Program-made: the position numbers and the translations under genes
The notes under the pieces: generated by a model
Seen by the model: only the letters and a program-made list of their open reading frames with translations
What the model was told of the DNA's origin: nothing
The model's database searches: none
Part shown: one piece after another, positions 1-45,875 of the stretch
Layout of the letters: each line of letters opens with the position of its first letter
Numbering within the stretch: the stretch's first letter is position 1
Assembly: GCF_001029285.1 (NCBI RefSeq)
Contig: NZ_LDZY01000015.1
Coordinates: 382-64,381, forward strand
Direction of reading: 5' to 3'
Source of the DNA: Desulfosporosinus acididurans
GTDB lineage: Bacteria > Bacillota > Desulfitobacteriia > Desulfitobacteriales > Desulfitobacteriaceae
Length of the DNA: 64,000 nt

Positions 1-407
1 ATTAGCCAAAGCCAAACTGTCAACTTCTTTGAGCCATTCAAATTCTTTCTTGAATTCAGCGGGTAATAAGTGTTTCTGTTGTTTCAACGCTTCTTTATCA
101 TCCTTGAACTGCTCATAAACCGCTTTACGGTTAGCAAGCATTTTGTTGTAGACAAACCGCACACAGCCGAACGTTTTATTGATGAGAATTTCTTGTTCAG
201 GAGAAGGATATATACGATATTTGAATGCCTTGTTCATAATTTCTCACCTTGGCTTTCAATATAGCGTTTGATAACTTCAATAGGGGCGCCGCCAGTGGTC
301 AGTAAGCAGAAACTCCTTGAACAAAGAGCGACAATTCATCCCCCACCTTCGCTCTCGCTATCGCGAGTATGGAAGGCTAAGAGGTGGGGGACTTCTTGTC
401 GCACGAG
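1..407 (-). mobile_element. Internally deleted IS200/IS605 copy (left-end part)
   Basis: This stretch is nearly identical to 2741-3531, with only a few single-base differences. It holds the first 79 codons of tnpB (1-237, running off the left edge), the last 29 codons of tnpA (234-320), and the left-end hairpin (about 339-394). About 383 bp covering most of tnpA and its upstream region is missing at the junction near 320. It therefore cannot make its own transposase, but could be mobilised in trans by the intact copy 1.3 kb away. The boundary at 407 was set by comparing both copies: the shared sequence stops there, next to TTTAAY in both cases. Confidence 0.85.
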
Positions 408-408
408 A

Positions 409-578
409 TTAAAGCCATTTTCGATTAAAAACAATGCATTCCTACCATCACCACACGCAATATCAAGGACAGAACCTTTTTTAAAGAACTTAATACTCTC
501 AATCAATGACTTCTCAGGACTTAATAGTTTATCCTCTTTCTTAGAAAACCTATTATTCCAGAATTCTTTATTGCCCAT
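409..578 (-). pseudogene. SAM-dependent methyltransferase, N-terminal part cut by the IS
   Basis: Reading on the minus strand from ATG at 578, about 57 residues are recognisable. They start MGNKEFWNNRF and lead to the class I methyltransferase SAM-binding motif VLDIACGDGRNALFL. The gene stops matching at ENGFN, exactly where the IS left end begins, and the frame then runs into IS sequence and ends at 336. The rest of the gene, if it survives, lies beyond the left edge on the other side of the element. The start at 578 matches how this family usually begins. An upstream in-frame ATG at 629 has no ribosome binding site. The substrate cannot be told. Confidence 0.7.
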
Positions 579-674
579 GTATTCCACGACGAATTTCCCT
601 TCTGTTCTTACGCAAGATCCAACTTCCATAACTTATAAAAAATAGTAACTTTCAAATATTAATTAACTACAAAT

Positions 675-1337
675 CTAAGTTTTTCTGACTGGGTGCCTTA
701 ATACTGTTTTCAACTTTTCGGGTGCCGTCTTTCGTGGGTCACTTAGGTAGATTTCATGATGACGTCTAATTTGACCGGAAGGGAGTATATCGGAGATTGC
801 ACATCTATATCCATTATCCAAAAGGAATTGTTCCATTTGCCCAAGAGTAACCGGTTCGCTATTATAAGGGCCGTTATGCATCATTTGTACACAGAGTCCC
901 TCTGTCAAAGATTCTAAACGAGCCTTTGTTGGATCAATCTTAGGCTTTTTCTGTTTCAACACGCTAACAGCCCAGTTAAAAACATCTTCGGTGACAAATT
1001 CAGGTTGACGAATCATAGATGTCCATTGAAATTTAGATTTGTCTATTAACTGTGTTCCGTCAAAACTATCGTCCTGAAACCACCAAAGTCCCTCCAAAGG
1101 CGGTACAACATATTCAAAATATCCTGCAGGCTGCTTTCCGCTCATCTTACTCATCTTAATGGTGAAGCTTAAACCATAAAGAATTTCCAAGGCTTCCTGA
1201 TATTCTTCAGAAGTATTCGGGTCTCCCGTACCATCAACCATAATAAAATTCATCGCCGGAACATCAATAAGGACAGGCTTTTGTTTAGGTACATACAAAT
1301 CCTTATATTCTTTTTTAAAATCGAATTTTCCAGCCAT
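675..1337 (-). CDS. GyrI-like small-molecule-binding domain protein
   Basis: A 220-residue cytosolic protein of the GyrI-like family, the effector-binding fold also found at the C-terminus of AraC/MerR multidrug regulators such as BmrR and Rob. It has no DNA-binding domain, so it is a stand-alone ligand-binding or ligand-hydrolysing protein. The opening KPVLIDVPAMNFIMVDGTGDP and the later MMHNGPYNSEPVTLGQMEQFL are typical of the longer two-lobed members of about 210 residues. GGAGGG lies about 8 bases before ATG 1337, inside the end of the upstream gene. Only three bases separate the two genes, so they were co-transcribed before the IS cut the first one. The ligand is unknown. Confidence 0.8.
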   Translation of the reverse strand: MAGKFDFKKEYKDLYVPKQKPVLIDVPAMNFIMVDGTGDPNTSEEYQEALEILYGLSFTIKMSKMSGKQPAGYFEYVVPPLEGLWWFQDDSFDGTQLIDKSKFQWTSMIRQPEFVTEDVFNWAVSVLKQKKPKIDPTKARLESLTEGLCVQMMHNGPYNSEPVTLGQMEQFLLDNGYRCAISDILPSGQIRRHHEIYLSDPRKTAPEKLKTVLRHPVRKT

Positions 1338-1340
1338 ATC

Positions 1341-1745
1341 TTAACCCTCCTGCTCAATGGGGATCACAATTTCCGTAACGTACTTATTGGGATTTCCTTT
1401 GAAAACAAGTCCTGGCCCTTTGTGATAAATTTCTCTCGAAGGCAGTATACTCGTAAGGCTGTGTTCTCTTGCGTAATCCAACACAGCTTTGTAAGCTAAA
1501 TTCAAGGTTTCATAAGTTCCAACATGCATAGTGCTAATTGCTCGTATTTTAGGCAACTGTTTTGCAACAATCTTCTTTCCTGCCACCATCCCTTTAGTAG
1601 GAACACAAAGTTCAATATCAGCCTCTTCCTTAAATTCGTCATCGTAATAGCAGCAAAACGGGTCTCCGGAAGCTTTTCCTTTAGCCTCTTGATAGATCAT
1701 GCCTATGTACTTGCCAACATCGCTATACTTTCCTGTGACATACTC
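1341..1745 (-). pseudogene. GyrI-like effector-binding protein truncated by the IS
   Basis: The frame stays open from the IS boundary near 1745 to the stop at 1341. The peptide before ATG 1700 (YVTGKYSDVGKYIG) matches the first strand-helix unit of a GyrI-like domain, which is normally preceded by about 15-20 more residues. The first available ATG at 1700 would make a 119-residue protein without that first strand. The N-terminal part is missing because the IS right end abuts it. The remainder, with GTYETLNLAYKAVLDYA and the end EIVIPIEQEG, looks intact and is followed after 3 bp by a second GyrI-like gene. Whether the shortened protein is made or folds is uncertain. Confidence 0.65.
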
Positions 1746-1960
1746 CCACCACCTATGCTAACGCTTAGAGGTGGGGGCTTCTTGGGACATACCAGCTTAT
1801 GCCAGTATAATTACCAAGCTAACCCCGTTTGCCCAACGGTTCTTAGTTATGGATTAGGCTATGCCAAGCAAGCGGCAGCCCTCATTTTTGATATTGATAG
1901 CAGCGTTTATGTCGCGGTCTAATTCTGCTCCGCAATGACTACAAGTCCAGGTCCTATCTG
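1742..1960 (-). ncRNA. Predicted TnpB guide RNA (omega/re RNA)
   Basis: By analogy with ISDra2-type elements, the transcript covering the tnpB 3' end and the right-end hairpin acts as the TnpB scaffold, and the bases just outside the right end become the guide. Here the scaffold would read leftwards through 1745-1778, and the guide would begin TATGTCACAGGAAAGTATAG (revcomp of about 1723-1742). The hairpin is seen directly. The RNA, its 5' end and the exact guide start are inference from the family. Confidence 0.5.
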
Positions 1961-2978
1961 ATAGAGTTAGTTCTTTATTTTCGTTGTTGCAGAACCTGCA
2001 CATCTTACTGGATGGAAACCACTTATCAATAACGACTAACTGTTTTCCCTGTTCAGTAAGTTTGTATGTTAGAAAAGTTTTTAGCATACCAAAACCATTG
2101 TCATTCGTGGATTTTGAAAGATTGAGACATTGAGCCATGCCAAGCATATTTAGGTCTTCAATGGCAATAGCTGAGTAATCATCGGCTATTTGCCTAGACA
2201 GTTTATGCAAGAAGTCCTTTCGTTGATGAGCTACTTTTTCATGCAGTTTGGCAACCTTACGACGTTGTTTGTCACGATTTTTACTACCCTTTTGGCGTTT
2301 AGATAGTTTGCGTTGTGCTTTTTTTAATTTTGCTTCGGCTTGACGGTAGAACTTTGGATAATCGGCATTATTTGCTTGGCTATCGACAAACAATGTCTTT
2401 GATGAATAATCCAAACCTAGTACCGTTTCTCTCGTTGGTGTTACGGGCTTTATAGCGGCTTCAAACTCAACCAATACGGAAATATAGTAGTTCCCTGTAG
2501 GAGTTTTGCTTATAGTCGCAGACTTTATAACGGCTTCTTTAGGTAATTGTCGGTGTAGCTTAATCCGTACATCTTTTAATTTTGGCAATCGAATTATCTT
2601 ACTGTCAATAAGCCTGATTGTTCCACCTTGATTGTTGGTAGTATAGGATTTCTTGTCACGATGCTTGTTTTTGAACTTCGGAAAGCCTATTGATTTATCC
2701 CGAAAGAAGTTTTTGTATGCGGTCTGCAAATTCAGTTGAGCATTAGCCAAAGCCAAACTGTCAACTTCTTTGAGCCATTCAAATTCTTTCTTGAATTCAG
2801 CGGGTAATAAGTATTTCTGTTGTTTCAACGCTTCTTTATCATCCTTGAACTGCTCATAAACCGCTTTACGGTTAGCAAGCATTTTGTTGTAGACAAACCG
2901 CACACAGCCGAACGTTTTATTGATGAGAATTTCTTGTTCAGGAGAAGGATATATACGATATTTGAATGCCTTGTTCAT
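1854..2978 (-). CDS. tnpB: TnpB RNA-guided nuclease
   Basis: TnpB of 374 residues, the ancestor-type relative of Cas12, which uses an RNA made from the transposon right end to cut DNA and so keep the element in place. Visible parts are the N-terminal KAFKYRIYPSPEQEILINKT, a RuvC-I aspartate at about 190 in LGLDYS, the RuvC-II glutamate at about 274 in IAIEDLNM, a zinc finger with CxxC at 327-330 and 346-349, and the RuvC-III aspartate near 354 in LDRDINAAINI. All catalytic residues are present and the length is typical. Its start overlaps the tnpA stop (ATGA), so the two are translated together. The 3' end runs straight into the right-end hairpin. Confidence 0.93.
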   Translation of the reverse strand: MNKAFKYRIYPSPEQEILINKTFGCVRFVYNKMLANRKAVYEQFKDDKEALKQQKYLLPAEFKKEFEWLKEVDSLALANAQLNLQTAYKNFFRDKSIGFPKFKNKHRDKKSYTTNNQGGTIRLIDSKIIRLPKLKDVRIKLHRQLPKEAVIKSATISKTPTGNYYISVLVEFEAAIKPVTPTRETVLGLDYSSKTLFVDSQANNADYPKFYRQAEAKLKKAQRKLSKRQKGSKNRDKQRRKVAKLHEKVAHQRKDFLHKLSRQIADDYSAIAIEDLNMLGMAQCLNLSKSTNDNGFGMLKTFLTYKLTEQGKQLVVIDKWFPSSKMCRFCNNENKELTLSDRTWTCSHCGAELDRDINAAINIKNEGCRLLGIA

Positions 2979-3391
2979 AATTTCTCACCTTGGCTTTCAA
3001 TATAGCGTTTGATAACTTCAATAGGTGCGCCGCCAGTGGTCAGTAAGCAGAAACTCCTTGACCAGAAATAGTCTTTCCATAGTGATTTTTTGACGATAGG
3101 ATATTCTTTCTTGGTTAGTCGAGAGGATGCGCTTTTATAGGCATTGATGAACTTTGATAATTCGCTATTGGGTTGCGCTTTGAACAGAATATGCACATGG
3201 TCTTTATCATGGTTCCATTCCTGCAAAACAACATTGTAATTTGGTGCTATGTACTCAAAAATCTCTTTGAGACGATTGGAAATCTTATCATCAATTACTT
3301 TCCGGCGATATTTTATAACCAAAACGAGATGATAATACATCAAGAATACTGAATGATTATTATTGTCTAATTCCATTGTGATCACCGCCAT
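2975..3391 (-). CDS. tnpA: IS200-type Y1 transposase TnpA
   Basis: A 138-residue HUH single-strand transposase. The metal-binding HVH motif is at residues 65-67 (KDHVHILF) and the nucleophile tyrosine is near 130 (VIKRYIESQ). The length and the N-terminal YYHLVLVIKYRRKV match intact family members. It would cut and join the hairpin-flanked element ends at TTTAA-type targets during replication. Start 3391 is the first ATG; a start at 3376 (MELDN) is possible. It overlaps tnpB by 4 bp. It is the only complete tnpA in the window and could also mobilise the deleted copy at 1-407. Confidence 0.92.
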   Translation of the reverse strand: MAVITMELDNNNHSVFLMYYHLVLVIKYRRKVIDDKISNRLKEIFEYIAPNYNVVLQEWNHDKDHVHILFKAQPNSELSKFINAYKSASSRLTKKEYPIVKKSLWKDYFWSRSFCLLTTGGAPIEVIKRYIESQGEKL

Positions 3392-3531
3392 ACATAACTA
3401 TACTACTGATTATATCATGGCAGTATTTATATAACAATAACAAAACAAAGAGCGACAATTCATCCCCCACCTTCGCTCTCGCTATCGCGAGTATGGAAGG
3501 CTAAGAGGTGGGGGACTTCTTGTCGCACGAG

Positions 3532-3717
3532 GTTAAAACACCTCGTATTACATTCCTGTACGACCAATACCCCTAGACAAATGATACATTAAGGATTAGA
3601 TAATCGTTTAGAGCCGGGAAATAATTATGGAAATAGCTGTTTGACGAATACTCAATACAAATTTCCAGTATCGTATTTTCCAACTTGGAAACTCTAACTA
3701 AAAGGAGTGTGATAAGG
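3532..3717. other. Non-coding stretch between IS and membrane protein
   Basis: This stretch follows the IS left end. Read on the minus strand toward the IS it ends in TTTAAC, the target sequence. No open frame joins it convincingly to the truncated GyrI-like gene on the other side of the IS. A ribosome binding site (AAAGGAG at 3701-3707) lies at its right end and serves the TTG start at 3718. Confidence 0.5.
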
Positions 3718-4281
3718 TTGAAAAAAATAAACGATAGAATTCTTCTTGGAATGTTATCTGGTATCGTTGGTTTAATAGCTTTAATGGTAACTGATAATAT
3801 CTCGTCAAAAGCGAAAATTTCGCAACGGTCATTTGCAACAACAGCTGCTGGTGTGTGGGTATCTTCTCGTAGACAAGCAGAAAAATGGCAAGGACAACTT
3901 CTTGGAACATTAATGACCATAGGTTTAAGTATGGTCGGCGGAGTTTCAGCGGTTAAACTGTTAACTACTTATGGTCGAGACAAATTAATTGCCAAAGGTA
4001 CTTTTTTGGGAGTTACGTTTGGGGCAGTGATAACAGCTATACTTAGCGGCCTTGCCCAAAACAAAGTTAAGCCCAAAGATGCTAATAGTAATCTTTCGTA
4101 TCTGGTATCTCATGCATTATTTGGTTTAGCAACAGTATTAACAGCGGCTAAAGCGGGCGATGATTCTTTGTTTGACGCTCCCCCTAAAAATAATTACTTA
4201 CAATCCACAGAACAAACAACTGAGCAAATCATAGGGGCGAACAATGATACCATTCAACCTGTCCAGCCTATATATCATTAA
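3718..4281 (+). CDS. Small integral membrane protein of unknown function
   Basis: About 187 residues, not recognised. The start is taken as TTG 3718 because AAAGGAG lies 10 bases upstream; an ATG at 3685 in the same frame has no such site. The protein shows four likely membrane segments: LLGMLSGIVGLIALMV, LGTLMTIGLSMVGG, GVTFGAVITAILSGL and LVSHALFGLATVLT. A soluble hydrophilic tail of about 40 residues is rich in T, Q and N. A strong terminator follows directly, so it is a single-gene unit. No enzymatic motif is visible. Confidence 0.75.
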   Translation: MKKINDRILLGMLSGIVGLIALMVTDNISSKAKISQRSFATTAAGVWVSSRRQAEKWQGQLLGTLMTIGLSMVGGVSAVKLLTTYGRDKLIAKGTFLGVTFGAVITAILSGLAQNKVKPKDANSNLSYLVSHALFGLATVLTAAKAGDDSLFDAPPKNNYLQSTEQTTEQIIGANNDTIQPVQPIYH

Positions 4282-4293
4282 TTAAATGTTTTA

Positions 4294-4326
4294 GCACTCA
4301 TACGAGAAATCGTATGAGTGCCTTCT
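4294..4326 (+). terminator. Terminator after the membrane protein gene
   Basis: A perfect 12-bp stem, GCACTCATACGA with a GAAA loop and TCGTATGAGTGC, 12 bases after the stop codon, followed by CTTCTT. Confidence 0.75.
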
Positions 4327-4342
4327 TAAATAACAAAGCCAA

Positions 4343-4558
4343 GAGAGCCGCGATTATATGTCGTGAAGCCTCTGCAGGAGTCGCAGCCAAACTCGGCTTT
4401 AAATTCTCTTTCTTCAGTGGGGCGGGAAACAGGACGTTTCCCGCCGGCCTTGCGACAGGGATGTCGCATAGGCCGGGCACCCTGCCCGCTTGCATCAGAA
4501 TTTAAAGCCCTAATTTGGCGCGACGAACGCATGGCCGAACAAGTATAATGCGACCCTC
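4343..4558 (+). repeat. Self-complementary repeat element, copy 1, with two CsrA-like hairpins
   Basis: First of two related elements of about 216 bp. The outer arms are mutually complementary; GGCTTTAAATTCT near 4395 pairs perfectly with AGAATTTAAAGCC near 4498. At the apex are two side-by-side hairpins. The one at 4421-4445 has stem GGCGGGAAAC/GTTTCCCGCC and an AGGAC loop. The one at 4446-4474 has stem GGCC..TGCGACA/TGTCGCA..GGCC and a GGGA loop. The frames through it lack ribosome binding sites and do not resemble proteins. The strand is chosen because only the plus-strand RNA shows ARGGA in the loops. Confidence 0.75.
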
Positions 4559-4629
4559 ACCTATAGAAACATGCAAACACAAAACTCCAAAGGACCACCC
4601 ACCAACCGTCCCTCTTCTTAATAAGCCAA

Positions 4630-4846
4630 GAGGGTCGCAATTATACGGCGTGAGGCCTTTGCGGGAGTCGCAGCCAAACTCGGTTTTAAATTCTCTTTCA
4701 TTAGTGGGGCGGGAAACAGGGATGTTTCCCGCCGGCCTTGCGACAGGGATGTCGCATAGGCCGGGCACCCCACCCACTTGCATCAGAATTTAAAGCCCTA
4801 GTTTGGCGCGACGACCGCATGGCCGAACAAGTATAATGCGACCCTC
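4630..4846 (+). repeat. Self-complementary repeat element, copy 2, with two CsrA-like hairpins
   Basis: Direct repeat of 4343-4558, about 85 percent identical by eye, separated by a 71-bp unrelated spacer. The ends form an inverted repeat: GAGGGTCGCA-TTATAC at 4630 and GTATAATGCGACCCTC at 4831-4846. Further inward, GCCAAACT pairs with AGTTTGGC and TTTAAATTCT with AGAATTTAAA, giving arms of about 62 nt (4630-4694 and 4785-4846). The apical hairpins at 4708-4733 and 4734-4762 both display ACAGGGATGT, five bases of stem-loop context identical to the CsrA consensus RUACARGGAUGU. It could be a small RNA, a MITE-like element, or both. It lies between convergent genes. Confidence 0.8.
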
Positions 4847-4884
4847 GGCAGAATAAGAGACCCTTTAACAAATCCCAGCAGGGC

Positions 4885-6489
4885 TTAAACCCGCGCCCGG
4901 CGCGCCCCCTCATCAAACTTCCAAATCGTCCAATTAATCGCATCAAGCAAAGCCTGCGCACTGGCTTTCAGAATATTATTGGAAACCCCAATCGTCCCCC
5001 AAACCTCGTGCCCCAAACGCGTATCAATAATAACCCGAACAATAGCCTCAGTCCCTCGCGAACCATCCAAGACTCTAACCTTATAATCCACCAGTTCACT
5101 CTCCGCCAGAATCGGAAAGAAACTTGCCAGAGCCTGACGCAGCGCCGAATCCAAAGCATTTACAGGACCGTTGCCTTCGGCGGCAATTTGCACGGTCTGT
5201 TCCCCGACTTTAACCTTCACAACGGCCACCGAATCAAGTTCACCGCGCAGCGGATCACTCCAGACATGATAATCTAAAACTTCAAAGGGAGACGTAAAAC
5301 GGTTTAAGGTGCGGACCAGCAGCAAATCAAGACTGCCCTCAGCGGCCTCGAACTGGAACCCATTGTTCTCCATATCCTTAATTTCGAGCATTGCCTTCTC
5401 CACCAAGGGATCTTCTTTAACAATATCCGGATCAAAACGGCGAAGCCGTTCGAAAATATTTGCTTTTCCCGCTTGGTCAGAAATCAATATTCTCCGTTCA
5501 TTCCCTACCTCGCCCGGGTCCATGTGTTCAAAAGTCCGATGATTCTTGAGAATCGCATCAACATGCATTCCAGCTTTATGAGCAAAGGCACTGCGGCCTA
5601 CGTAGGGCTGTCTCTCGTCAAAGGGCGCATTGGAAAGCTCCGCGGCAAAGCGAGAAAAGGGAGTAATCTTGTGCAGGGCGGAATCCGAAAGGACGTCATA
5701 GTTTCCCTTAACTTGCAATAAAGGAACTAAAGTACTTAAATTGGCATTTCCGCAGCGTTCACCATATCCGTTCCAGGTTCCCTGGACCTGGGTTACTCCT
5801 GCCTCTACGGCTACCAGAGAGTTAGCCACTGCCAAGCCGCTGTCATTATGAACATGAATTCCTAACTCTTGAGGAGCAAATTCACGTCTCACCATTTCTA
5901 CTCCCAAGGCAATGTCCTTCGGCAAAGAACCGCCATTCGTATCACATAAGATGGCTATGGAAGCTCCGGCTTGAAGAGCCATCTCAATACACTTCAGAGC
6001 ATAGTCCGGGTTTTCTTTAAACCCATCAAAAAAATGTTCAGCATCAAAAAATACGTCATGGCCTTGTTTGACTAAGAAGGAAACAGATTCACGGATCAGG
6101 CGCAGATTTTCCTCCAAGCTCGTCCGCAAAACATCTCGCACATGCAAATCCCATGCTTTTCCGAAAATGGTAATGGTTTTAGCTCCGGAAGCCACCAGCT
6201 TAAGTAAAATCTCACTGTTTTCCGGCGCTTCATTCACTTTGCAGGTACTTCCAAAGGCAGCTATATGTGTCATAGGAACCTCTTGTTCCTTGATAAGCTG
6301 AAAGAAATTATCATCTCTGGGATTAGCTCCCGGCCATCCTGCTTCAACATAGAGACTGCCCATTTCCTCGATCCGCTTGACATAACTCAGCTTGTCTTGT
6401 GTCGAAAAATGAATCCCTTCTCCCTGTGCTCCATCTCTTAAAGTTGTATCGTAGATTGTAATTTTTCGTTTAGCTTCGTTTTGATTCAT
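4885..6489 (-). CDS. cimA: Citramalate synthase (2-isopropylmalate synthase-like)
   Basis: A 534-residue enzyme that condenses pyruvate with acetyl-CoA to (R)-citramalate, the first step of the threonine-independent route to isoleucine. The DRE-TIM barrel opens with ITIYDTTLRDGAQGEGI, followed by CDTNGG, the metal-binding HVHNDSGLA, and GNANLSTLVPLL. The C-terminal LeuA-dimer regulatory domain (about 390-530) contains VRVLDGSRGTEA. The length and the LRDGAQ.EG signature fit the CimA/AksA-like clade better than LeuA. ATG 6489 is preceded by GGAGGGG. The frame continues upstream to 6711 but only through the riboswitch and terminator, so those 74 codons are not coding. Confidence 0.92.
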   Translation of the reverse strand: MNQNEAKRKITIYDTTLRDGAQGEGIHFSTQDKLSYVKRIEEMGSLYVEAGWPGANPRDDNFFQLIKEQEVPMTHIAAFGSTCKVNEAPENSEILLKLVASGAKTITIFGKAWDLHVRDVLRTSLEENLRLIRESVSFLVKQGHDVFFDAEHFFDGFKENPDYALKCIEMALQAGASIAILCDTNGGSLPKDIALGVEMVRREFAPQELGIHVHNDSGLAVANSLVAVEAGVTQVQGTWNGYGERCGNANLSTLVPLLQVKGNYDVLSDSALHKITPFSRFAAELSNAPFDERQPYVGRSAFAHKAGMHVDAILKNHRTFEHMDPGEVGNERRILISDQAGKANIFERLRRFDPDIVKEDPLVEKAMLEIKDMENNGFQFEAAEGSLDLLLVRTLNRFTSPFEVLDYHVWSDPLRGELDSVAVVKVKVGEQTVQIAAEGNGPVNALDSALRQALASFFPILAESELVDYKVRVLDGSRGTEAIVRVIIDTRLGHEVWGTIGVSNNILKASAQALLDAINWTIWKFDEGARRARV

Positions 6490-6526
6490 TTTTCCCCTCC
6501 GCAATCCAAAAAGTATACCAAATGGT

Positions 6527-6562
6527 ATCAAAAAACCCGCAGCCGTTCCTAAGAACTTCCAC
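6527..6562 (-). terminator. Riboswitch-controlled terminator before cimA
   Basis: On the minus strand CCCG..GTTC-TTAG-GAAC..CGGG is followed by TTTTTT, within the leader. The left arm overlaps the 3' conserved GTGGAAG segment of the aptamer, so aptamer folding and terminator formation exclude each other. Confidence 0.7.
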
Positions 6563-6642
6563 GGGGCTTTTGTCCCACACGGTGTAGTTGGGTATTTTCC
6601 AACCTGTGTCGCTCGGTCCAGACCATATTCAGCGGAACCCTT
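6556..6642 (-). promoter_or_regulatory. ykkC-family riboswitch, probably ppGpp-sensing (subtype 2a)
   Basis: On the minus strand the leader shows the conserved ykkC pieces in order: GGGTTCCG, a short stem, TCTGGACCGAG, a variable hairpin, ACACCGTGTGGGACAAAAGCCC and GTGGAAG. Subtype 2 members sense ppGpp or PRPP. ppGpp members sit before branched-chain amino-acid genes in Firmicutes, which fits cimA; PRPP members sit before purine genes. In the ppGpp class, ligand binding blocks the terminator and turns expression on during starvation. Family assignment is by motif recognition; the ligand is inferred from the gene downstream. Confidence 0.85.
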
Positions 6643-6661
6643 AACACACTTCTTGTTGTCT

Positions 6662-6691
6662 ATTATATGACACAAACACCTTAATGTACAA
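6662..6691 (-). promoter_or_regulatory. Sigma-A promoter of the cimA leader
   Basis: On the minus strand TTGTAC (6686-6691), an 18-base spacer, then TATAAT (6662-6667). Transcription would start near 6655, just ahead of the riboswitch, which supports the non-coding reading of this leader. Confidence 0.75.
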
Positions 6692-6958
6692 CAGTTCGTT
6701 CTCCATAACAATAATTAATTGCGAAACAACAGCAGAAATTTTATAATCATTGCTCTTAATTATGTATAATTATTTTATTAAAAAAACAAGCATGATTATT
6801 TAATTGTTTAATTTATTATTTTTTTTATTTTCATAAACCGTTCTCGTGAATAATCTGCTGAAGCTTAAAAAAGAAACAACAAAGAGAACGGTCTTTGCCT
6901 ATTTAAAAGGTATTTGACCGAACTCATTAGTTAGCAGCTTAGTTGCTGCTGCATGACT
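6692..6958. other. AT-rich gap between cimA promoter and rex
   Basis: Very AT-rich with no gene. A 9-bp inverted repeat ACCGTTCTC (6837-6845) and GAGAACGGT (6884-6892) spans a 38-base loop, and GCAGC-TTAGTT-GCTGC lies just after the rex stop. Either may help end rex transcription; neither has a clean T-run. Confidence 0.35.
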
Positions 6959-7591
6959 CTAAAATCTTTGAGCGCCAACGTTAAAGGTAAGTACTTCGAG
7001 ATTAACAGCAAGATCGACATTCCTCAGTTCAATCTCAGGCGGAACATTCAAGACGACTGGTGCAAAATTTAAGATTGCCTGCACACCGGCCTTAATAAGT
7101 TTATCCGCAATTTCCTGAGCGACAGATGAAGGTACGGCTATAATACCGATCTGAGTTTGATTTTGTCTCGTAACTTCTTCAATCTGGTCAATTGGTAAGA
7201 TTTCAACGTCACCGATTTTGGTTCCAATCTTATCAGGATCTGAATCAAAAATACTGGTAATGATGAACCCCCGCTCGCGAAATCCTTTGTATGAACTTAA
7301 GGCCAAACCTAAGTGCCCGGCACCGACCAAAGCAACGCTCCAATCAACACTTAAGCCAAGAATTCTCAAAATATGCTGACGAAGATCTTTGACGTTATAT
7401 CCTACACCCCTTGTTCCAAACTCTCCGAAGTACGCTAGATCTTTCCGGACTTGTGCGGGACTGACGCCCACTCCTTCCGCGATATCCCCTGATGAGGTAG
7501 TAATTATTCCTTTTCTATCGACGTCTGTCAGATGTCGTGAGTAAACTGAAAGTCGAATAATAGTAGCCTCTGGGATTTTAAGCGTTTTCAA
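6959..7591 (-). CDS. rex: Redox-sensing transcriptional repressor Rex
   Basis: A 210-residue repressor that senses the NADH/NAD+ ratio and derepresses fermentation and respiration genes when NADH is high. The N-terminal winged helix (about 1-80) contains IPEATIIRLSVYSRHL and GVSPAQVRKDLAYFGEFGTRG, the standard Rex recognition region. The Rossmann domain follows, with VALVGAGHLGLAL binding the dinucleotide. The C-terminal domain-swapped helix is present (VNLEVLTFNV), and the length is typical. The gene is alone, with its start preceded by an AT-rich promoter region containing tandem 18-bp repeats. No consensus Rex operator was found in the window. Confidence 0.95.
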   Translation of the reverse strand: MKTLKIPEATIIRLSVYSRHLTDVDRKGIITTSSGDIAEGVGVSPAQVRKDLAYFGEFGTRGVGYNVKDLRQHILRILGLSVDWSVALVGAGHLGLALSSYKGFRERGFIITSIFDSDPDKIGTKIGDVEILPIDQIEEVTRQNQTQIGIIAVPSSVAQEIADKLIKAGVQAILNFAPVVLNVPPEIELRNVDLAVNLEVLTFNVGAQRF

Positions 7592-7770
7592 TAAGTTCCC
7601 TCATTTCTCATCTGATATTTAAATCAAATTAACTTAATCGGATAATAATAATAATAAAATTATAGTTATGTTAATTATATCACTATTAACTAAAAACGCA
7701 AATAGTTCCATTTTATAATCTTCTGACTATTAATCATCGCCCTTGATACTCTCCCTTTAGCGTTTTTTTA

Positions 7771-7845
7771 GCTTATATTTTATAGTTGGCTTATATTTTA
7801 TAGTTGGCTTATATTTTATAGTTTTGCTTATATCTTATAGTTATT
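7771..7845. repeat. Four tandem 18-bp AT-rich repeats
   Basis: The unit GCTTATATTTTATAGTTG is repeated at 7771, 7789, 7807 and 7826, the last two slightly degraded. The array ends in the last codons of the SPOR-domain gene and lies upstream of rex. It could bind a regulator or be replication slippage. Confidence 0.85.
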
Positions 7846-8536
7846 ATTTCCCAGAAAATGCATTTATAATCCTCGTAGCAGCAAAATATAGAGACAATCC
7901 TAAAAGCTGCTGATCTTGTGGGTCATTCTTCGCCCGAAGCAAATTATAGAGATTATGAAGCTGAACTAATTGTGAAGGGGAATGCTCTCCAGCCAGACTA
8001 TTCCATATTTGCTGTTCCTGAGCTAAACGTTGAGAACTGATTCCTTCCTGCAAGAGAGCATTAACATTGGCAAGGAGTTCTATCGTTAGACGCGAACCAT
8101 TCCCCATAACACGAAATGTTCGCTCCTGGAGTTCAACTTGTTTAATCACAGCGGGAATACCCTTAGCAGCAAGAGCTTCTTTGACGCCGCTTAACTCCTT
8201 TGCCGTATGGCCTAAACCGATGGCGACAATCCAGGGGTCCCTGCTGATAATACCGCCATCATTCGCTAACTCCTGCAGCTGCTTAAGGCAGGACTGAGCA
8301 TTTTCTTCACTCTGAAAAACACCAATTTGACAGGTCCAAAAGGTTGCTTTGGGCAGAACCAAGGTGTCTGCTTGATTTTTCGCTTGACCGTCAGATGTGA
8401 TTTGAGGAATGCTTACCTTTGCTGAATGATCTACAAGTTCCAAATAGGCTTTTCCAATTCCCCAGGTCAGCAACCCCAAAGCCATCATCCCCAAGAGCAC
8501 CAACGTGAGAATACGCAGCCGCTGAAATTGATTCAT
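7844..8536 (-). CDS. SPOR-domain membrane-anchored protein
   Basis: About 230 residues. One N-terminal membrane helix (ILTLVLLGMMALGLLTWGIG, about residues 10-30) anchors it, with the rest outside the membrane. A SPOR-like domain (about 65-135: FWTCQIGVFQSEENAQSCLKQL to GIPAVIKQVEL) normally binds peptidoglycan stripped of stem peptides at division or sporulation septa. The helical C-terminal half is not recognised. ATG 8536 has GGGAGGAG upstream; the frame extends to 8635 without a better start. It is a single gene between the rex and pit units. A role in septal peptidoglycan binding is inferred from the domain only. Confidence 0.75.
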   Translation of the reverse strand: MNQFQRLRILTLVLLGMMALGLLTWGIGKAYLELVDHSAKVSIPQITSDGQAKNQADTLVLPKATFWTCQIGVFQSEENAQSCLKQLQELANDGGIISRDPWIVAIGLGHTAKELSGVKEALAAKGIPAVIKQVELQERTFRVMGNGSRLTIELLANVNALLQEGISSQRLAQEQQIWNSLAGEHSPSQLVQLHNLYNLLRAKNDPQDQQLLGLSLYFAATRIINAFSGK

Positions 8537-8724
8537 CCTTCTACTCCTCCCGCAGGGTCCGGACAACCCTTCTACCGGAAGATATGTAGAAAAACTGAAA
8601 AATAGACTCCAAAATTCAAAAAGGGGCTGCCGCAAACACTTAACAGTTTACGGTGCCCCTCTTCAGCTTCTTTATCCCCATCTAAAACTCTCAATTCCCA
8701 AGCAGGGTCTATTCGATTTCACTC

Positions 8725-9732
8725 CTACATAATTCTTGAAACAACGAGATAATATAGGGCAGCTATAATCGAAGTTGTGGGAATTGTCACAATCCAAGCA
8801 ATCAGCATTTGTTGAGCAACGCCCCAACGCACAGCCGAAACCCTTTTGGCACTGCCGACTCCCATAATAGAACCGGAGACAACATGAGTCGTCGATACCG
8901 GAAGGTGAAGACTTGGAAATACCGTCGCTGTCCAGATGACAATTGAAGAGCTCAAATCGGCAGCAAAGCCGTTAATAGGTTCCAGTTTAAAAATTTTCCC
9001 GCCCATAGTATGAATAATCTTCCATCCCCCGGCAGCCGTCCCTATAGACATAGCCAGAGCGCATGCCAGTTTAACCCAAAGAGGAGGTGCCAGAACCGTC
9101 TGAGCCTGAACTCCTGTGGCAATGAGAGTCATAGTAATAATCCCCATGGATTTTTGGGCATCATTGGAGCCATGATTAAAGGCCAATAAGCCTGCGGAAA
9201 GGACCTGCATTTTCTTGAATCCATGATTGACACGTGACGGTGATAATTTACCAAAGGCCATATTTAAAACTTTCATAATGATAAATCCTAAAATCATACC
9301 AATAATCGGTGAAAAGACCAAGGCTGCCAGGATCTTGCCTAAACCATCCCAGTGTAGAACGGCAAAGCCGGCTTTGGCAGCAGCAGCACCGGCAACACCT
9401 CCGACAATAGCGTGGGAAGAGCTGCTGGGAATTCCTAAATACCACGTTACAAGATTCCAGGTAATAGCGCTGAGCAAGGCGGCAATAATGACCTCTTGGG
9501 TCGTTAACTTGGGCGAAACAATATCCTTGGCAATCGTTTGGGCCACTCCCGTGCTGACCAATGCTCCCAGCAGATTAAATGCCGCCGCTAAAACAACTGC
9601 ATGTTTCGGACTCAAAGCCCGAGTCGATACGCTGGTGGCAATAGCATTTGCTGTATCATGGAATCCATTAATGTAGTCAAAGCATAAGGCTAAAAAGACA
9701 ACTACTACTAATAATACGCCAATATTAGTCAT
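8725..9732 (-). CDS. pit: PiT-family inorganic phosphate permease
   Basis: About 335 residues with roughly ten membrane segments. It carries the duplicated PiT signatures: FDYINGFHDTANAIATSVSTRA near the N-terminus and AFNHGSNDAQKSMGIITM in the middle. It takes up phosphate, usually as a metal-phosphate complex with protons or as sodium symport. Conserved SSSSHAIVGG and STTHVVSGSIMGVG match the two PD motifs. ATG 9732 overlaps the upstream DUF47 gene by 8 bp, so the two are translationally coupled; this pairing is usual and the partner probably regulates the transporter. It is single-copy here and does not belong to a pst cluster. Confidence 0.93.
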   Translation of the reverse strand: MTNIGVLLVVVVFLALCFDYINGFHDTANAIATSVSTRALSPKHAVVLAAAFNLLGALVSTGVAQTIAKDIVSPKLTTQEVIIAALLSAITWNLVTWYLGIPSSSSHAIVGGVAGAAAAKAGFAVLHWDGLGKILAALVFSPIIGMILGFIIMKVLNMAFGKLSPSRVNHGFKKMQVLSAGLLAFNHGSNDAQKSMGIITMTLIATGVQAQTVLAPPLWVKLACALAMSIGTAAGGWKIIHTMGGKIFKLEPINGFAADLSSSIVIWTATVFPSLHLPVSTTHVVSGSIMGVGSAKRVSAVRWGVAQQMLIAWIVTIPTTSIIAALYYLVVSRIM

Positions 9733-40488: not shown

Positions 40489-40535
40489 TGGCAAGAGCGT
40501 TGGAAATGTGTTGTTCCAACGCTCTTGCCATTTTT
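40489..40535 (+). terminator. Terminator after the repeat protein gene
   Basis: TGGCAAGAGCGTTGGAA pairs perfectly with TTCCAACGCTCTTGCCA, followed by TTTTTAT, 10 bases past the stop codon. Confidence 0.9.
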
Positions 40536-40548
40536 ATTCTCACTATAA

Positions 40549-40646
40549 AGCGAACTCGCTTACGCCAAAGCTGAACATCGGGGCTTCAGATACAATAATG
40601 TCCAGTGGACATTATTGCCGAGCCGCCTTTTCCAATAGGAATACTG
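40549..40646 (+). repeat. Dispersed palindrome repeat, copy D
   Basis: GCGAACTCGCTTACGCCAAAG through CTGAACATCGGGGCTTCAGA, the perfect palindrome CAATAATGTCC/GGACATTATTG and GCCGAGCCGCC, ending at AATAGGAATACT. The GGCGAAGGAGG part and terminal hairpin are missing. Confidence 0.8.
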
Positions 40647-40720
40647 ATAAACATGATTATCCAAATGAGCATTTAGATTCAAAGTTAAATAACATTGCGT
40701 TGAACGACAGTAAATAAAAA

Positions 40721-40752
40721 AAGCCTTCCTGGGTGTTAACCCTAGAAAGGCT
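40721..40752 (-). terminator. Terminator of the zinc-ribbon gene
   Basis: On the minus strand AAGCCTTTCTAGGG pairs with CCCAGGAAGGCTT, followed by TTTTTTATTT. Confidence 0.8.
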
Positions 40753-40768
40753 TCGGTCGATTAAATAA

Positions 40769-41071
40769 TTACCAATTGTTTCTCGTGCGTGGTTGATAAC
40801 AGTCACGGCAATATACTGGTTTATCACCCGTCGGTTGGAAAGGCACTGTCGTTTCTTTTCCACAATTAGCACAGATTGCAGGAAACATTTCTCTTTGAGG
40901 GCGAGAGTATCCACTATTGTTTCTGCCTTGTGCCTTTCTGGCAGAACGGCATTTTGGGCACCGACCAGGTTCGTTAGCAAATCCCTTTTCTGCGTAGAAT
41001 TCTTGTTCGGAAGCGGTAAAGGTAAACTCACTGCCACAATCCTTGCATGTTAAAATTTTGTCTTCAAGCAT
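40769..41071 (-). CDS. Zinc-ribbon protein with two CxxC pairs plus C-terminal pair
   Basis: About 100 residues. An N-terminal ribbon with CKDCGSEFTFTASEQEFYAE, then CPKCRSARK, matches the small family of probable zinc-binding proteins common in Firmicutes. The middle is Gly/Arg/Ser-rich, and a second ribbon (CANCGKETTVPFQPTGDKPV, CRDC) follows. ATG 41071 has GGAGG eight bases upstream. The two ribbons and the basic linker suggest nucleic-acid or protein binding, but no partner is evident. Often cold-shock or stress related in other genomes, which is not shown here. Confidence 0.78.
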   Translation of the reverse strand: MLEDKILTCKDCGSEFTFTASEQEFYAEKGFANEPGRCPKCRSARKAQGRNNSGYSRPQREMFPAICANCGKETTVPFQPTGDKPVYCRDCYQPRTRNNW

Positions 41072-41331
41072 TAAAAAAACCTCCAAAATATATTACCCGC
41101 GCTACATGGGAAGTAGTTATTGCTTCCTATAGCTTTAGGCAACAGAGGAAGGTTTTCGTAAATCCGCAAATATTAACGAGCTTATTAAGTATAACTGTAA
41201 TGAAGAAATAAGTCAAATACTTAATAAGCTATTTCTCAAATAGATATTTCCTAAATATGGTATACCGAGAATAATAAAACAGGACTTCAGGAATAAGCAA
41301 AACGTTATCAAAACCGTATTTGAGATTATCT

Positions 41332-41820
41332 CTAGGAGTTCAACACTTCATCCAACAAACGAACTGCTTGTTCTTCTTTAAGGCCCTTAACCTCCATTAT
41401 CTCGCTGACAAAAACATGACGTGCATTATTCAACATGTTTACGTCATCTGCCCCAAGTTTATTTATTTGACCCTTACGTGTTAAATCACGGATAATTTCC
41501 GCACCTTTATAAATGTCACCACTTTTAAATTTCTTTTTATTAATATCTTTGCACCATCGTTGATTTTCAAGAATAATCGGGTCAGTATTTCCAAGGTTAA
41601 AATCACTGAGTACATTTTCCAATATCTCATGGTTAACTATCTGACGCATACCTACATCGACAGCTTTGTCCATTGGAACCATAACATGCAATTTCTCCTG
41701 AGGAATGTTCAAAATGTAGCAGAGTTTTCTTTCCCCTAAGATCTCTTTTTCTTCAACTGCTTCTACAACACAAGCCCCATGAACTGGATATATAATCTTG
41801 TCACCAACGTTAAATATCAT
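41332..41820 (-). CDS. CarD/CdnL-family RNA polymerase-binding regulator
   Basis: A 162-residue cytosolic protein with the N-terminal CarD-type RNA-polymerase interaction domain (FNVGDKIIYPVHGACVVEAVEEKEI) and a helical C-terminal domain (EIIRDLTRKGQINKLGADDV, then LLDEVLNS). This family binds the RNA polymerase beta subunit and stabilises open promoter complexes, mostly at rRNA and stress genes; in Firmicutes it is often spore or growth-phase regulated. ATG 41820 has GGAGG upstream. No neighbour is linked to it. Confidence 0.87.
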   Translation of the reverse strand: MIFNVGDKIIYPVHGACVVEAVEEKEILGERKLCYILNIPQEKLHVMVPMDKAVDVGMRQIVNHEILENVLSDFNLGNTDPIILENQRWCKDINKKKFKSGDIYKGAEIIRDLTRKGQINKLGADDVNMLNNARHVFVSEIMEVKGLKEEQAVRLLDEVLNS

Positions 41821-42488
41821 ACCGTCTACCTCCAGACTACCACCCTAAGTATATCACAAAACAAGAAAAATTAAAAATAATTATTTTACCATATTATATT
41901 TATTTGTGTCAATAATTTATTGAGGAAGAAATCAGCTCAATCTTATAACAATTATTAATGGCAAAACTGGCGTCATCAAAAACCGAAAAATCCTCCCTTT
42001 AGCCGTTCACGGTTTAAGGGCCAAGAAGAATACCTCTCAACCGCATTTCGCAATATTTCAAGTACGAGTTTTGAATCTTGGGTTACTAATTTTCTAGCAG
42101 TCTCAAATGTCGTTATCTTATGCTCGTTTTCAATTCTTGCTGGATTTTTTTGAGAAGTACACACATTTATTTTTTACACACAAAAAGAGAACCTCTCAGT
42201 GGTTCTCTTAGCATTAGCTAGAAATAATCATGATAATGCATTAAAGGGTCTCCGGCTAGCGAAAAATGTGCGTATGTTAGCTCAATACGGCACTAAGGTC
42301 AAATATATTAATAGCACGTCTCCCCAGAGCGGTCAAGGGTCGAGATGAATGGCTTCGCGCCATTAGCCGTTTCGGAAACTATGTAATATGATAGCCATGT
42401 TAAGGCAAGCCTTAACCTTGTATGGCTCATTCCAAAAGAGACAGCCGCCTTTAGAAATAAATTCAAGGCAGCTTTTGATAGGCTATTG
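41821..42488. other. Non-coding gap with decayed coding fragments
   Basis: Upstream half: AT-rich promoter region of the CarD gene. The hairpin AAAGAGAACC-TCTCAGT-GGTTCTCTT is at 42183-42208. A minus-strand frame at 41976-42164 has no ribosome binding site. At 42308-42480 short peptides resembling an antitoxin helix (LSKAALNLFLKAAVSF) appear directly after the DUF5104 stop, together with small palindromes such as GTTAAGGC-AA-GCCTTAAC (42398-42415). No convincing intact gene. Confidence 0.4.
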
Positions 42489-43004
42489 TTACGGTTTATA
42501 TATTCCGGCAATTTTCATTTTTTGCCATGAACTAAATTGCGTATTTTCATCCTCGGCTTTAATCACACGTAATGAATATAAACCAACATTAGATTGGTCT
42601 GTATTTGTCGTGTATTCCAAAAGAAAGAAAAGATATTTTTGTTTGTCAGTCTCGACAATATAAAATGATTTTACCTCATTTGTACTATGCCCGTAATTGT
42701 CCGACTCATCAACTATTAGCCCATCATTCTTTTTAGACTGAACCTTGCCTTGAAAAAGCTTAAATAAGTAATTCATACTTCCATCAAAATCCTTAGCTTC
42801 AGCCAAAGCTTGTTTTGAAAACATTGCCCTTAAAGCATTTTTATCTTGATTTTGTATAGCTACAATCACTTGTTCTAGTTGAGCATCTGCTTTTTTATCG
42901 TCACTTTCTTTGTTAAGAATTCCCGCTCTTGACCCTCCTAGCGAACATGAACTTAGTAAACATGCTATGATAATTAATAAAATAGCATATGTTATTTTAC
43001 GCAT
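42489..43004 (-). CDS. DUF5104 predicted lipoprotein
   Basis: A 171-residue lipoprotein. The signal peptide ends in the lipobox LLSS-C, so it is anchored outside the membrane. The remainder is a single alpha/beta domain with KADAQLEQVIVAIQNQDKNA, then LRAMFSKQAL and YIVETDKQKYLFFLLEYTT, characteristic of DUF5104 proteins. They often lie next to Rhs-type or other polymorphic secreted toxins. Here it is 76 bp downstream of an orphan Rhs tip in the same orientation, so an immunity role is a reasonable but untested inference. Confidence 0.78.
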   Translation of the reverse strand: MRKITYAILLIIIACLLSSCSLGGSRAGILNKESDDKKADAQLEQVIVAIQNQDKNALRAMFSKQALAEAKDFDGSMNYLFKLFQGKVQSKKNDGLIVDESDNYGHSTNEVKSFYIVETDKQKYLFFLLEYTTNTDQSNVGLYSLRVIKAEDENTQFSSWQKMKIAGIYKP

Positions 43005-43080
43005 AACCTATCCCCTTCTGGTTTGTACCATTGTAATATCCGCTAACACAACTAATATACTCTAACTTCTTTGTCCAACA

Positions 43081-44072
43081 CTAGAATGTATATGTTAACA
43101 AATATTTATTATCTTTTGATATCGACCATTTATCTTTATTATCCAAGTATGCATTAGAATTAATAAAAGCATTATACATATCAGTTTTATTGGAAAAATC
43201 AATTGTATAAATAGCTGTCAGGTAATCTGCATCTGCTTGATCACCTTGATAATACGGATTAAAACCCGTTACCCACCATTGTGGTTCGTTAGGATTATAA
43301 GAAAATATAACGTTACATTTATTATCTTTAAGAGACAATGTTATTGGCATTGCATCACTTGTATCTGCCAGCCATTGATCTGTCTTAACACCGCAAATAC
43401 TTAATCTTGAGTATATACCCATTTCTGCACCAGCTCCAAGGTTAAGATAATTTCCTTTCCATGCCCAGAAAATATAATCTGTTCCTCCGTAATTAAATTG
43501 AAATTTTGCTTTATCCATGCTTGTGGAGTAATTGAAAACAGTATCATAGAAATCATTATAACCGGCATATTGCTGCAAAGCATCTTGCCTCGCATGGTAT
43601 ACGCCACCTGAATCCCTGACAAAACCCGCTTTATAATAGAGATCGCTAAACCACCCCTGTTGAGTTGCGTATACGTTGACTGGGTTAGCTATTAACCATT
43701 TTGCAGAAGTTCTCGTCACGTCTGTAAACTCAGGCCAATTTCCACTCATATCAACATATAAAATAGGATTATTAAAGCAATAAGTATAAAGATTCAGGCT
43801 TAACGGGTCTATTGTTTTTCCTGTATTTGTATCTTCATTCAAGAATCGGCCTGTTGTCGGATCATAATTTCTTGCCCGCAAGTAGTAGGTATTCGTCTCT
43901 AAATCTAGATACTCTCCTGAATACCTGAATACATTAGTGTCATTAGGGTCAATATTTTTCTCATTCCCAAAAGCATCATAGTCATAATTCTTTGTGACAT
44001 TCCCTGACGTATCAGCTAATTGAACAACATCTCCATGCCCATTATACATATATTGTTTCCTGACGTTTTTGA
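43081..44072 (-). CDS. Orphan Rhs tip with DUF4474 C-terminal domain
   Basis: About 323-330 residues, a C-terminal Rhs module without the rest of the Rhs barrel. The first 100 residues show the Rhs core end (VRKQYMYNGHGDVVQLADTS, then YLRARNYDPTTGRFLNEDT, NLYTYCFNNPILYVDMSGNW). The variable domain follows (from about residue 106) and matches DUF4474: YDTVFNYSTSMDKAKFQFNY, GTDYIFWAWKGNYLNLGAGA and WWVTGFNPYYQGDQADAD. ATG 44049 is the first start and the frame stays open for some codons upstream, so it is either a displaced C-terminal cassette or a remnant. Toxin activity is inferred. Confidence 0.8.
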
Positions 44073-44134
44073 CGACAGCATGAACTTGTTAACGACTGAA
44101 ATCGTTTATTTCAGAATGTCTATTCACATGTTAA

Positions 44135-45056
44135 TTAAACTATTTTGCCGACCCTTTTAGGCTTAATCAAGTTCATCAACGGCGATGCAGTTGAATGTGC
44201 AACTTTCAAGTCCTCATCAGTAGCTGCAATATAACGTCTAGTCATGGATAAGTCCGTATGTCCCATTAACCGCTGTAAGAATAATGCGTTACCACCGTTG
44301 CGGAGAAAGCCTAGAGCAAATGCATGTCGAAGCTAATAAGGGCGAATTTTAACGCCCAATTGGTTGGCATTACTTCTCTAGGCGGTCACCCCAAGTATGT
44401 CTGTTCAGCATCGTCCCATCGGCAGAGGCGAAAATTGGCGTTACATCTATCCATTCACGAGGACGAACTGCAATGAGTTGTGAGATTAACGAGGCAGTTG
44501 CTTGACTGACAGGTAAGATTCGCTGATTTCTTGTTTTTGCAATCTCCGCACGTATGAAGATCTCTAGAGTACGGGAATTAAAATCATGTTTGGTGAGTTG
44601 GCATGCCTCTTTTGGCCTAATACCTGTATCAATCGTCAAGAATATAAGTGCCTTGTCTCGCAAGCCAGCATAAGTTCGAACATCAGGCAATTTCACCAAT
44701 TCTGTGAGTGTTTCAGTATCCAGTTCAACAATCCTTGGCTCAGCTCGACGTTTTGAAAGGTTCTTGAGCGGGTTTTCATCCATATAACCTTGTTCCACAC
44801 ACCACTTGTAGAATCCTTTCAAATACGCTAACCGAATGTTGTATGTGGCTGGGGCAATCTTTTCAGTCATATAGGCGTATAGGTTCGCCTGTAAATTGCC
44901 ATCGGGAAATAAACGATAATATTTGTGGATGTGATAATCATAATCATGAATTGTCGTGTCCGATCGGCCTTGTGCCTTCTTTTCAGCTAGGAACATACTT
45001 AGCGTATCCTCCCAACGAATCAATGATTGTGTGACCTTACGTACCCTTTTTGCCAT
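44135..45056 (-). pseudogene. Tyrosine recombinase (phage-type integrase), inactivated
   Basis: Residues 1-220 are intact (MAKRVRKVTQSLIRWEDTLS, SAM-like core-binding domain, catalytic Arg in TIDTGIRPKEACQL). A one-base frameshift near 44371 then follows, and a TAG stop sits in place of a coding triplet just before the LRHAFALGFLRNGGNALFLQ box. Past that the C-terminus continues with RLMGHTDLSMTRRYIAATDE, including the catalytic Tyr, to a TAA at 44135. Two independent lesions make it dead. GGGAGG precedes ATG 45056. It lies beside the 3' end of tRNA-Leu, the usual attachment site of such integrases. Confidence 0.85.
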
Positions 45057-45236
45057 AAAACAATACCTCCCTTTTATTTGTGGAGGCATCCATAATTTTC
45101 TAAACGCTAACACACTGGACTCGCCGTAAACCAACACACTGGACTCGCGTTAATTTACGTCCAAATCCACCTTATACGTACAAAATCAAAAAGTACGCTT
45201 GAGTCTTACTCTCAAGCGTACTTGAACGTTTCTAAA
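45057..45236. other. Region between integrase relic and tRNA-Leu
   Basis: Contains two direct copies of AACACACTGGACTCGC (about 45107 and 45132). It might be a decayed attachment-site arm region. No gene. A hairpin TACGCTTGAG-TCTTA-CTCAAGCGTA at about 45191-45221 is the probable tRNA terminator. Confidence 0.5.
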
Positions 45237-45319
45237 TGGTGCGGGAGACAGGACTTGAACCTGCACGGTTGCCCGCTGGAACCTAAATCCAGTGCGTCTG
45301 CCAGTTCCGCCACTCCCGC
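45237..45319 (-). tRNA. tRNA-Leu (anticodon TAG)
   Basis: On the minus strand a full class II tRNA: 5' GCGGGAGTGGCGGAACTGGC, anticodon loop ATTTAGG (TAG), long variable arm GCGGGCAACCGTGC, T-loop GGTTCAAGTCC and an encoded CCA. It is followed by the dead integrase gene, consistent with use as an integration site. Confidence 0.95.
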
Positions 45320-45464
45320 ATGTTGAAATCACGTAGCAGAGAATATAATACCATATATCTTACAAAAAGACAAGGGATAGACTACAACTTGCCCAAACCA
45401 TAAACTCACAACAAATTCACTATAAACTACTATAACTTGTAACCTGGGTTTACCTATCACACTG

Positions 45465-45761: not shown

Positions 45762-45821
45762 AATTTTCTCTCCTTATCTACCCTGATTATTACTTGAATA
45801 TCAGTATACCATAATTTTGAC

Positions 45822-45862
45822 ACTCCCACGGCTGAAGCGGGTGGAATTCTTGGGTGATTAAA
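45822..45862 (-). repeat. IS200/IS605-type right-end hairpin relic
   Basis: ACTCCCACGGCTGAAGCGGG, then TGGAATTCTTGGG on the plus strand, matching the pattern of the right end at 1743-1790 (CTCCCACC...GTGGGGGCTTCTTGGG). It follows a TnpB fragment on the minus strand. Confidence 0.6.
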
Positions 45863-45875
45863 CCGAAATCCATTT

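Follow-up and report, generated by a model that had tools for sequence, protein, structure and literature searches.

The window that we analysed is a stretch of 64,000 nucleotides from Desulfosporosinus acididurans. On its reverse strand it carries two genes that point in the same direction, the end of an Rhs protein and, 76 bases after it, a gene for a lipoprotein. The features of the locus, with their strand in brackets, are as follows.

40495..45235 (no strand): segment absent at the same place in the relative G024, which has about 348 bp there (synteny)
42185..42209 (-): terminator-like stem-loop downstream of the lipoprotein gene; weak, with 2 found in the region against 1.5 expected in shuffles
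42489..43004 (-): DUF5104 lipoprotein of 171 aa with an NTF2-like fold, the proposed immunity protein (PF17117, 78.9 bits, cut-off 27); Cys20 codon at 42945-42947
43081..44049 (-): orphan Rhs tip gene of 322 aa, a core end with a toxin-type DUF4474 domain; the same tip occurs on Rhs-repeat proteins at loci L054, L056 and L058
43156..43611 (-): DUF4474-like toxin-type domain, residues 147-298 (PF14751, 53.3 bits, cut-off 23)
43741..43980 (-): Rhs-associated core end, residues 24-103 (TIGR03696, 73.1 bits, cut-off 32.5)
44047..44072 (-): point at which the Rhs frame is truncated and DNA homology to the Rhs frame of the congener G016 starts, and Shine-Dalgarno-like AGGA before ATG 44049 (by eye)
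44106..45137 (-): broken tyrosine recombinase (integrase; PF00589, 43.9 bits), made up of ORF 44370-45137 and of a C-terminal part that lies in a different frame and itself contains a stop
45237..45319 (-): tRNA-Leu, bordering the extra segment on its right (synteny with G024)

The tip gene joins an Rhs core end to a divergent DUF4474 domain, and its frame opens at ATG 44049, the first start codon past a stop. This is the Rhs end with an intact variable domain that the original prediction had described. The prediction also noted that the rest of the Rhs barrel is missing. The RHS_repeat model reaches 19.2 bits on the tip gene, under its cut-off of 22. In G016 the Rhs frame is longer, and the DNA of the two genomes starts to be similar at 44047, the tip's ATG (83% over 43171-44047), which makes the truncation point clear. 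The AGGA lies 8 nt upstream of that ATG. A promoter scan around the pair was at chance level (9 found against 9.0 expected), and a tblastn search of plasmid and phage collections with the tip gave no match.

The lipoprotein gene is equally as predicted, with its DUF5104 domain and in the direction of the tip. It encodes a signal peptide with the lipobox LSSC, and AAGGGG ahead of its ATG at 43004 resembles a Shine-Dalgarno site (both by eye). The lipobox cysteine is kept in 21 of the 22 aligned DUF5104 proteins. The G+C content is 0.33 for the lipoprotein gene, 0.35 for the tip gene and 0.43 for the window.

That the pair lies in an island beside tRNA-Leu is supported by comparison with two relatives, G024 (the closer one) and G008. 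In G024, the regions corresponding to positions 34420-40494 and 45236-47791 of the window are neighbours, about 348 bp apart. Here an extra segment of 4.7 kb, which on one side ends at the 3' end of tRNA-Leu, separates them, and the integrase gene sits between tRNA-Leu and the pair. Part of this segment, a CarD-like gene and its flank (40718-41929), is present elsewhere in both G024 and G008, and 41930-45235 has no counterpart in either genome among the matches listed. In G008, the CarD-like block lies about 123 kb from tRNA-Leu; the tRNA-Leu flank (45236) looks like a site of rearrangement. No same-strand exact match of more than 11 bases to the tRNA-Leu region was found elsewhere in the window. 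We also observed a gene for a DUF2680 protein (39718-40479, +), in which six stretches of 51 nt are related to each other and one of 197 nt is duplicated at 94% identity.

Displaced Rhs ends of this kind were expected to recombine into a full rhs gene, an expectation that finds no support here. The genome (G000; 4.64 Mb in 47 contigs) contains one Rhs_assc_core match, which is the tip in our window, one DUF5104 gene, and no match to RHS_repeat in any of the 47 contigs. Since no other Rhs cores or repeats were found and the integrase is broken, joining a full rhs gene is impossible within the genome as assembled. Unless a main Rhs protein is missing from the assembly, the orphan has none here onto which it could be loaded.

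Pairing of the tip with DUF5104

The original prediction staked itself on DUF4474 and DUF5104 occurring together in other genomes. The DUF4474-type tip and DUF5104 do so as an ordered pair far beyond this one. Scanning the tip alignment against 84,980 species yielded 22 loci, many of them in MAGs and one (L051) in a record marked UNVERIFIED_CONTAM. Such pairs were seen in many records of Bacillota and in one Treponema MAG. At 19 of the 22 loci a Pfam DUF5104 above cut-off lies directly downstream of the tip, and at five (L052, L057, L060, L061 and L062) copies follow the tip in tandem. A candidate immunity gene directly downstream, sometimes in several copies, is the arrangement of polymorphic toxins.

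Three of the 22 loci have no such DUF5104. L070 is a stand-alone DUF4474, and in L068 a different lipoprotein of 402 aa takes the place of DUF5104. In L059 (642..1394, +) an intact tip is fused to a lipoprotein signal of its own, and no DUF5104 was found in that genome. Hence, the domain can sit on the cell surface without this partner. The fusion might be a domesticated surface form.

Our second sample consists of 392 genomes from the order of Butyrivibrio hungatei (G219, locus L069) and is largely independent of the first. The tip matches in this sample number 36, spread over 35 genomes, and we examined 30 of these matches as loci. With our own profiles, DUF5104 lies beside 11 of 12 tips that score at least 70 bits and beside none of the 18 that score lower (Fisher p 2.2e-7). 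If only Pfam is used, the count drops to 10 of 12 (p 2.2e-6), because the match at L135 is partial (an 87-aa frame) and its genome is absent from the Pfam DUF5104 matches. Leaving out the two loci shared with the 84,980-species scan gives 9 of 10 against 0 of 18 (p 1.4e-6). The lone high-scoring exception is L145, a stand-alone protein, and the 18 lower-scoring loci are mostly stand-alone DUF4474 genes as well. At L146, a broken tip lies among three DUF5104 genes. In a sample of the window's own class, DUF5104 occurs in 3 of 82 genomes, each time directly after one of the three closest tips. The pairing of tip and DUF5104 is real and specific.

Looked at from the other side, the association is looser. 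DUF5104 is present in 34 of the 392 order genomes, and a tip lies within 1.5 kb at 8 of the 30 DUF5104 loci examined and not at the other 22. In a sample of the phylum it occurs in 3 of 398 genomes, one of which (G406) has four DUF5104 copies and no tip in the stretches read. DUF5104 is thus often found without a tip close by; it is a broader family in which being the partner of the tip is one use. Some genomes carry several DUF5104 genes, in part in strings that resemble polyimmunity arrays (eight in the genome of G809:C13, four in that of G821:C1 and four in G406). G821 has a tip beside its DUF5104 genes, and G809 has only a weak tip match of 20.9 bits.

The two partners also diverge together. 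For 17 of the 20 possible pairs (L049, L062 and L066 were left out), the more alike two tips are, the more alike are the first DUF5104 copies downstream of them (Mantel r 0.756, p 5e-5, host relatedness uncorrected); without the LXG pair, r is 0.767.

Carriers, relatives and predicted folds

The same C-terminal tip is found on different carriers, another property of polymorphic toxins. Rhs-repeat proteins carry it in L054, L055, L056 and L058 (Pfam and NCBIfam), with RHS_repeat scores of 205.4 bits in L054 (1095 aa), 149.6 in L056 (1806 aa) and 101.3 in L058 (1866 aa, running into the end of its contig). LXG proteins carry it in L067 (27.8 bits) and L069 (26.9 bits; cut-off 26.5), and in L065 TSP3 repeats precede it. 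In L051 (4128..5660, +; Acetivibrio alkalicellulosi, the record flagged above), a type I dockerin (66.3 bits) precedes the tip, with an Rhs core end between the two. Such a weapon tip might be able to dock on a cellulosome. The start of the L057 protein looks like a signal peptide, and L054 has, behind the long Rhs frame and its pair, a displaced second Rhs core end that bears another tip (both by eye). Zhang et al. (2012; PMC3482391) have described cassettes that are arranged like those of L054.

In the congener G022, a BC protein of the SpvB/TcdB type (2478 aa), encoded beside a TcA-like frame, has a related DUF4474 (154.9 bits) at its C-terminal end (locus L039, G022:C141, 9503..16939 and 2..9442, both -). 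No DUF5104 was found in the G022 genome. A DUF4474-like end in L157 (G642:C116), on a frame of more than 640 aa that has proline-rich repeats and runs off the contig, perhaps marks another carrier.

Many members of the DUF4474 family stand alone, among them the only other one in the genome of our window (C2:244840; 314 aa, with a C-terminal TM-like segment). These proteins, the core of PF14751, have the motifs W-K-G-x-Y, G-x-E-x-G-I-Y and W-W-x-T-G-F in common with the tip. They differ from it in three ways. First, the Pfam match covers the full 240 positions in both proteins scanned. Second, a hydrophobic TM-like segment is present in all six examined. Third, none of the 18 low-scoring loci has an adjacent DUF5104, and neither has L145. 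Two carrier frames, L007 and L019, have no TM-like segment. Bit score alone does not separate toxin-type from stand-alone DUF4474, since L145, with 77.9 bits and an N-terminal TM-like segment, is of the stand-alone kind. At E 0.01 the Pfam model fails to detect the L054 and L058 tips, although our tip profile, which contains both, matches them. The many stand-alone proteins are probably not toxins. The original prediction made DUF4474 the effector; this does not apply to the family overall, in which many members stand alone without a DUF5104 neighbour, and only the distinct subfamily that forms the tip would have such a role.

We modelled the tip domain with AF2 as residues 108-322 (43084-43728; 20 sequences, pLDDT 92.1, pTM 0.88). 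The model places helices at the N-terminus, followed by a run of strands, which we interpret as a beta-sandwich. Over 20 tip sequences, some of them partial, 13 columns do not vary, including W88, W90, G92, Y94, E102, W151 and W152. A PDB sequence search with the tip profile returned a chance match as its best (E 2.1), Foldseek gave no hit at E <= 0.001 against the PDB and viral models, and no enzyme match for the model was found in the PDB. The velvet domain was the best hit of VIA-align (Z 6.2, rmsd 4.3, 111 aligned), below the level at which the tool is telling. With no good structural match to the tip, we name neither a fold relative nor an enzyme activity.

The DUF5104 model (pLDDT 86.2) matches 4r1k, titled NTF2-like, with Z 13.2 and rmsd 3.2 over 127 aligned residues, and many further NTF2-fold chains with Z 8 to 11. 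With a profile built from eight DUF5104 proteins, 4r1k is found at E 4.8e-29, a value raised by a near relative of 4r1k inside the profile (L047, DUF5104 by Pfam).

What the pair may do

The domains and their order, the truncation, the co-occurrence, the varied carriers, the co-divergence, the lipobox and the predicted fold of the lipoprotein lead us to the following explanation. The locus is probably a stranded polymorphic toxin-immunity cassette, in which a DUF4474-type toxin tip would act outside the cytoplasm and a DUF5104 lipoprotein would provide immunity at the cell surface. It would add a new toxin-immunity pair to the polymorphic toxin systems already known.

The tip would be the C-terminal toxin domain that elsewhere rides on Rhs, LXG (type VII) and TSP3-repeat proteins and on further proteins that are secreted or lie at the surface. 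Its cognate immunity protein would be the DUF5104 lipoprotein, whose NTF2-fold domain is presumably anchored on the outer face of the cytoplasmic membrane, where it could bind an incoming tip and block it. A lipoprotein that faces outward can protect only against an agent that is extracytoplasmic or incoming, and the lipobox cysteine is nearly always kept; we thus infer that the tip works at the outer face of the membrane. Its target is most likely the membrane surface itself or a lipid-linked component of the envelope. The TM-like segment of the six stand-alone relatives would fit a lipid or membrane-bound target.

The cassette seems to have arrived beside tRNA-Leu without an Rhs body, and no other Rhs protein was found for it to join. 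The tip is probably not delivered. Of the two, the lipoprotein is most likely still useful; at the surface it could protect the cell from neighbours armed with the complete weapon.

One could also argue that both genes are decaying leftovers without a role, retained by chance after the segment landed. The loss of the Rhs body and the broken integrase would fit this explanation, as would the stop within the tip of G016. However, both ORFs are intact in our window, and the lipoprotein gene has a good Shine-Dalgarno-like site. Over its mature part, DNA identity to the G016 gene is 96.5% and omega is 0.31. We consider it rather unlikely that the two genes are relics. For the remaining parts, omega against G016 is 0.04 (Rhs core part) and 0.20 and 0.26 (two tip pieces). 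An omega below 1 in tip and lipoprotein alike speaks for the toxin-immunity explanation. The corresponding dS values are 0.38, 0.42 and 0.99, and that of the mature lipoprotein is 0.08; over 42487-42959 the lipoprotein gene matches G016 at 95% in DNA. A dS so far below that of the tip means that the lipoprotein has a different and more recent common history, and that the pair is a mosaic. The mature lipoprotein (42492-42944 in the window, 1242-1766 in L037) is much closer between two species than the tip next to it and the signal peptide is not, which gives the immunity gene itself a mosaic appearance.

A second alternative is that the tip is not a toxin at all; it could be a ligand-binding or adhesive module of the cell surface, with DUF5104 as its surface partner or anchor. 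The lipoprotein-tip fusion of L059, which does without DUF5104, could be explained in this way, and so could the beta-sandwich model, whose matches to binding domains are no more than weak, and the common, domestic-looking stand-alone DUF4474 proteins. An adhesin would not be expected to sit C-terminally on exchangeable Rhs and LXG carriers, with a related domain on a Tc-like BC protein, nor to be followed by tandem copies of its partner, nor to recur as a displaced core end with a tip behind an Rhs gene. These features make an adhesive role improbable. It is very improbable that DUF5104 is an accessory protein or chaperone for display or delivery of the tip, since, even though strict adjacency by itself fits a partner as well as an immunity protein, the DUF5104 gene comes after the toxin gene and not before it, keeps this order across different kinds of carriers, and occurs solo or in multiple copies with no tip close by, like orphan immunity genes.

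If the pair is indeed a toxin with its surface immunity, one may ask where such a weapon came from. A domestic clostridial membrane domain (DUF4474) may have become the tip of weapons that include at least Rhs, LXG and Tc-like ones. By an undescribed mechanism it would attack either the cytoplasmic membrane, from outside, or a lipid-linked precursor, using the conserved W-K-G-x-Y, G-x-E and W-W motifs of its beta-sandwich, and would have driven the rise of immunity by NTF2-fold lipoproteins. We put forward this scenario tentatively, as one possible history that we would not yet favour.

Comparison with known systems

The names DUF4474 and DUF5104 were absent from the text that we searched, which covers 5.39 million open-access papers. 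The parts of the proposed immunity protein do have precedents. In the collection of Zhang et al. (2012; PMC3482391), the NTF2 fold serves as immunity in Imm-NTF2, and Imm65 is an immunity protein with a lipobox, described there as the only lipoprotein of the collection. DUF5104 unites the fold of the former with the lipobox of the latter, yet it is a separate Pfam family, and the Imm-NTF2 Pfam models gave no match to the lipoprotein in our window in hmmscan at E up to 1. The toxins that the paper lists, namely Tox-NucA, Tox-JAB-2 and Tox-JAB-1, are also different from the tip.

The closest precedent for the layout of the locus is the orphan rhs-CT/rhsI module of Salmonella LT2, which likewise consists of a little Rhs core with a C-terminal toxin, followed by an immunity gene (Koskiniemi et al. 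2014; PMC3967940). In our window, too, an Rhs core end is joined to a variable tip, and the three Rhs-repeat proteins named in the feature list carry the same tip at the end of a long protein. The Salmonella orphan, as that paper describes it, adjoins a full main rhs gene and recombines with it, whereas no second Rhs core was found in the genome of our window. Our fragment has an ATG with a Shine-Dalgarno-like site, which may set it apart from orphan modules, where a separate translation start is lacking. Another difference is that the proposed immunity protein is a lipoprotein.

For the proposed mode of action one can compare TslA/TilA (PMC10730906), a proven toxin of Bacillota that acts outside the cell and is countered by a surface lipoprotein from a multicopy family. 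Extracellular action and surface lipoprotein immunity are what it shares with our proposed pair. The protein families are not the same: TslA is a phospholipase with a reverse domain order and TilA a DUF576 protein, whereas the lipoprotein in our window gives DUF5104 only above cut-off (hmmscan). As for TslA, the anchoring of the lipoprotein points to a target outside the cytoplasm. Our proposal gives a joint and testable function to two Pfam families of unknown function that are found as a pair behind several kinds of carriers, and the copy in our window is a clear example of such a cassette stranded without its delivery gene.
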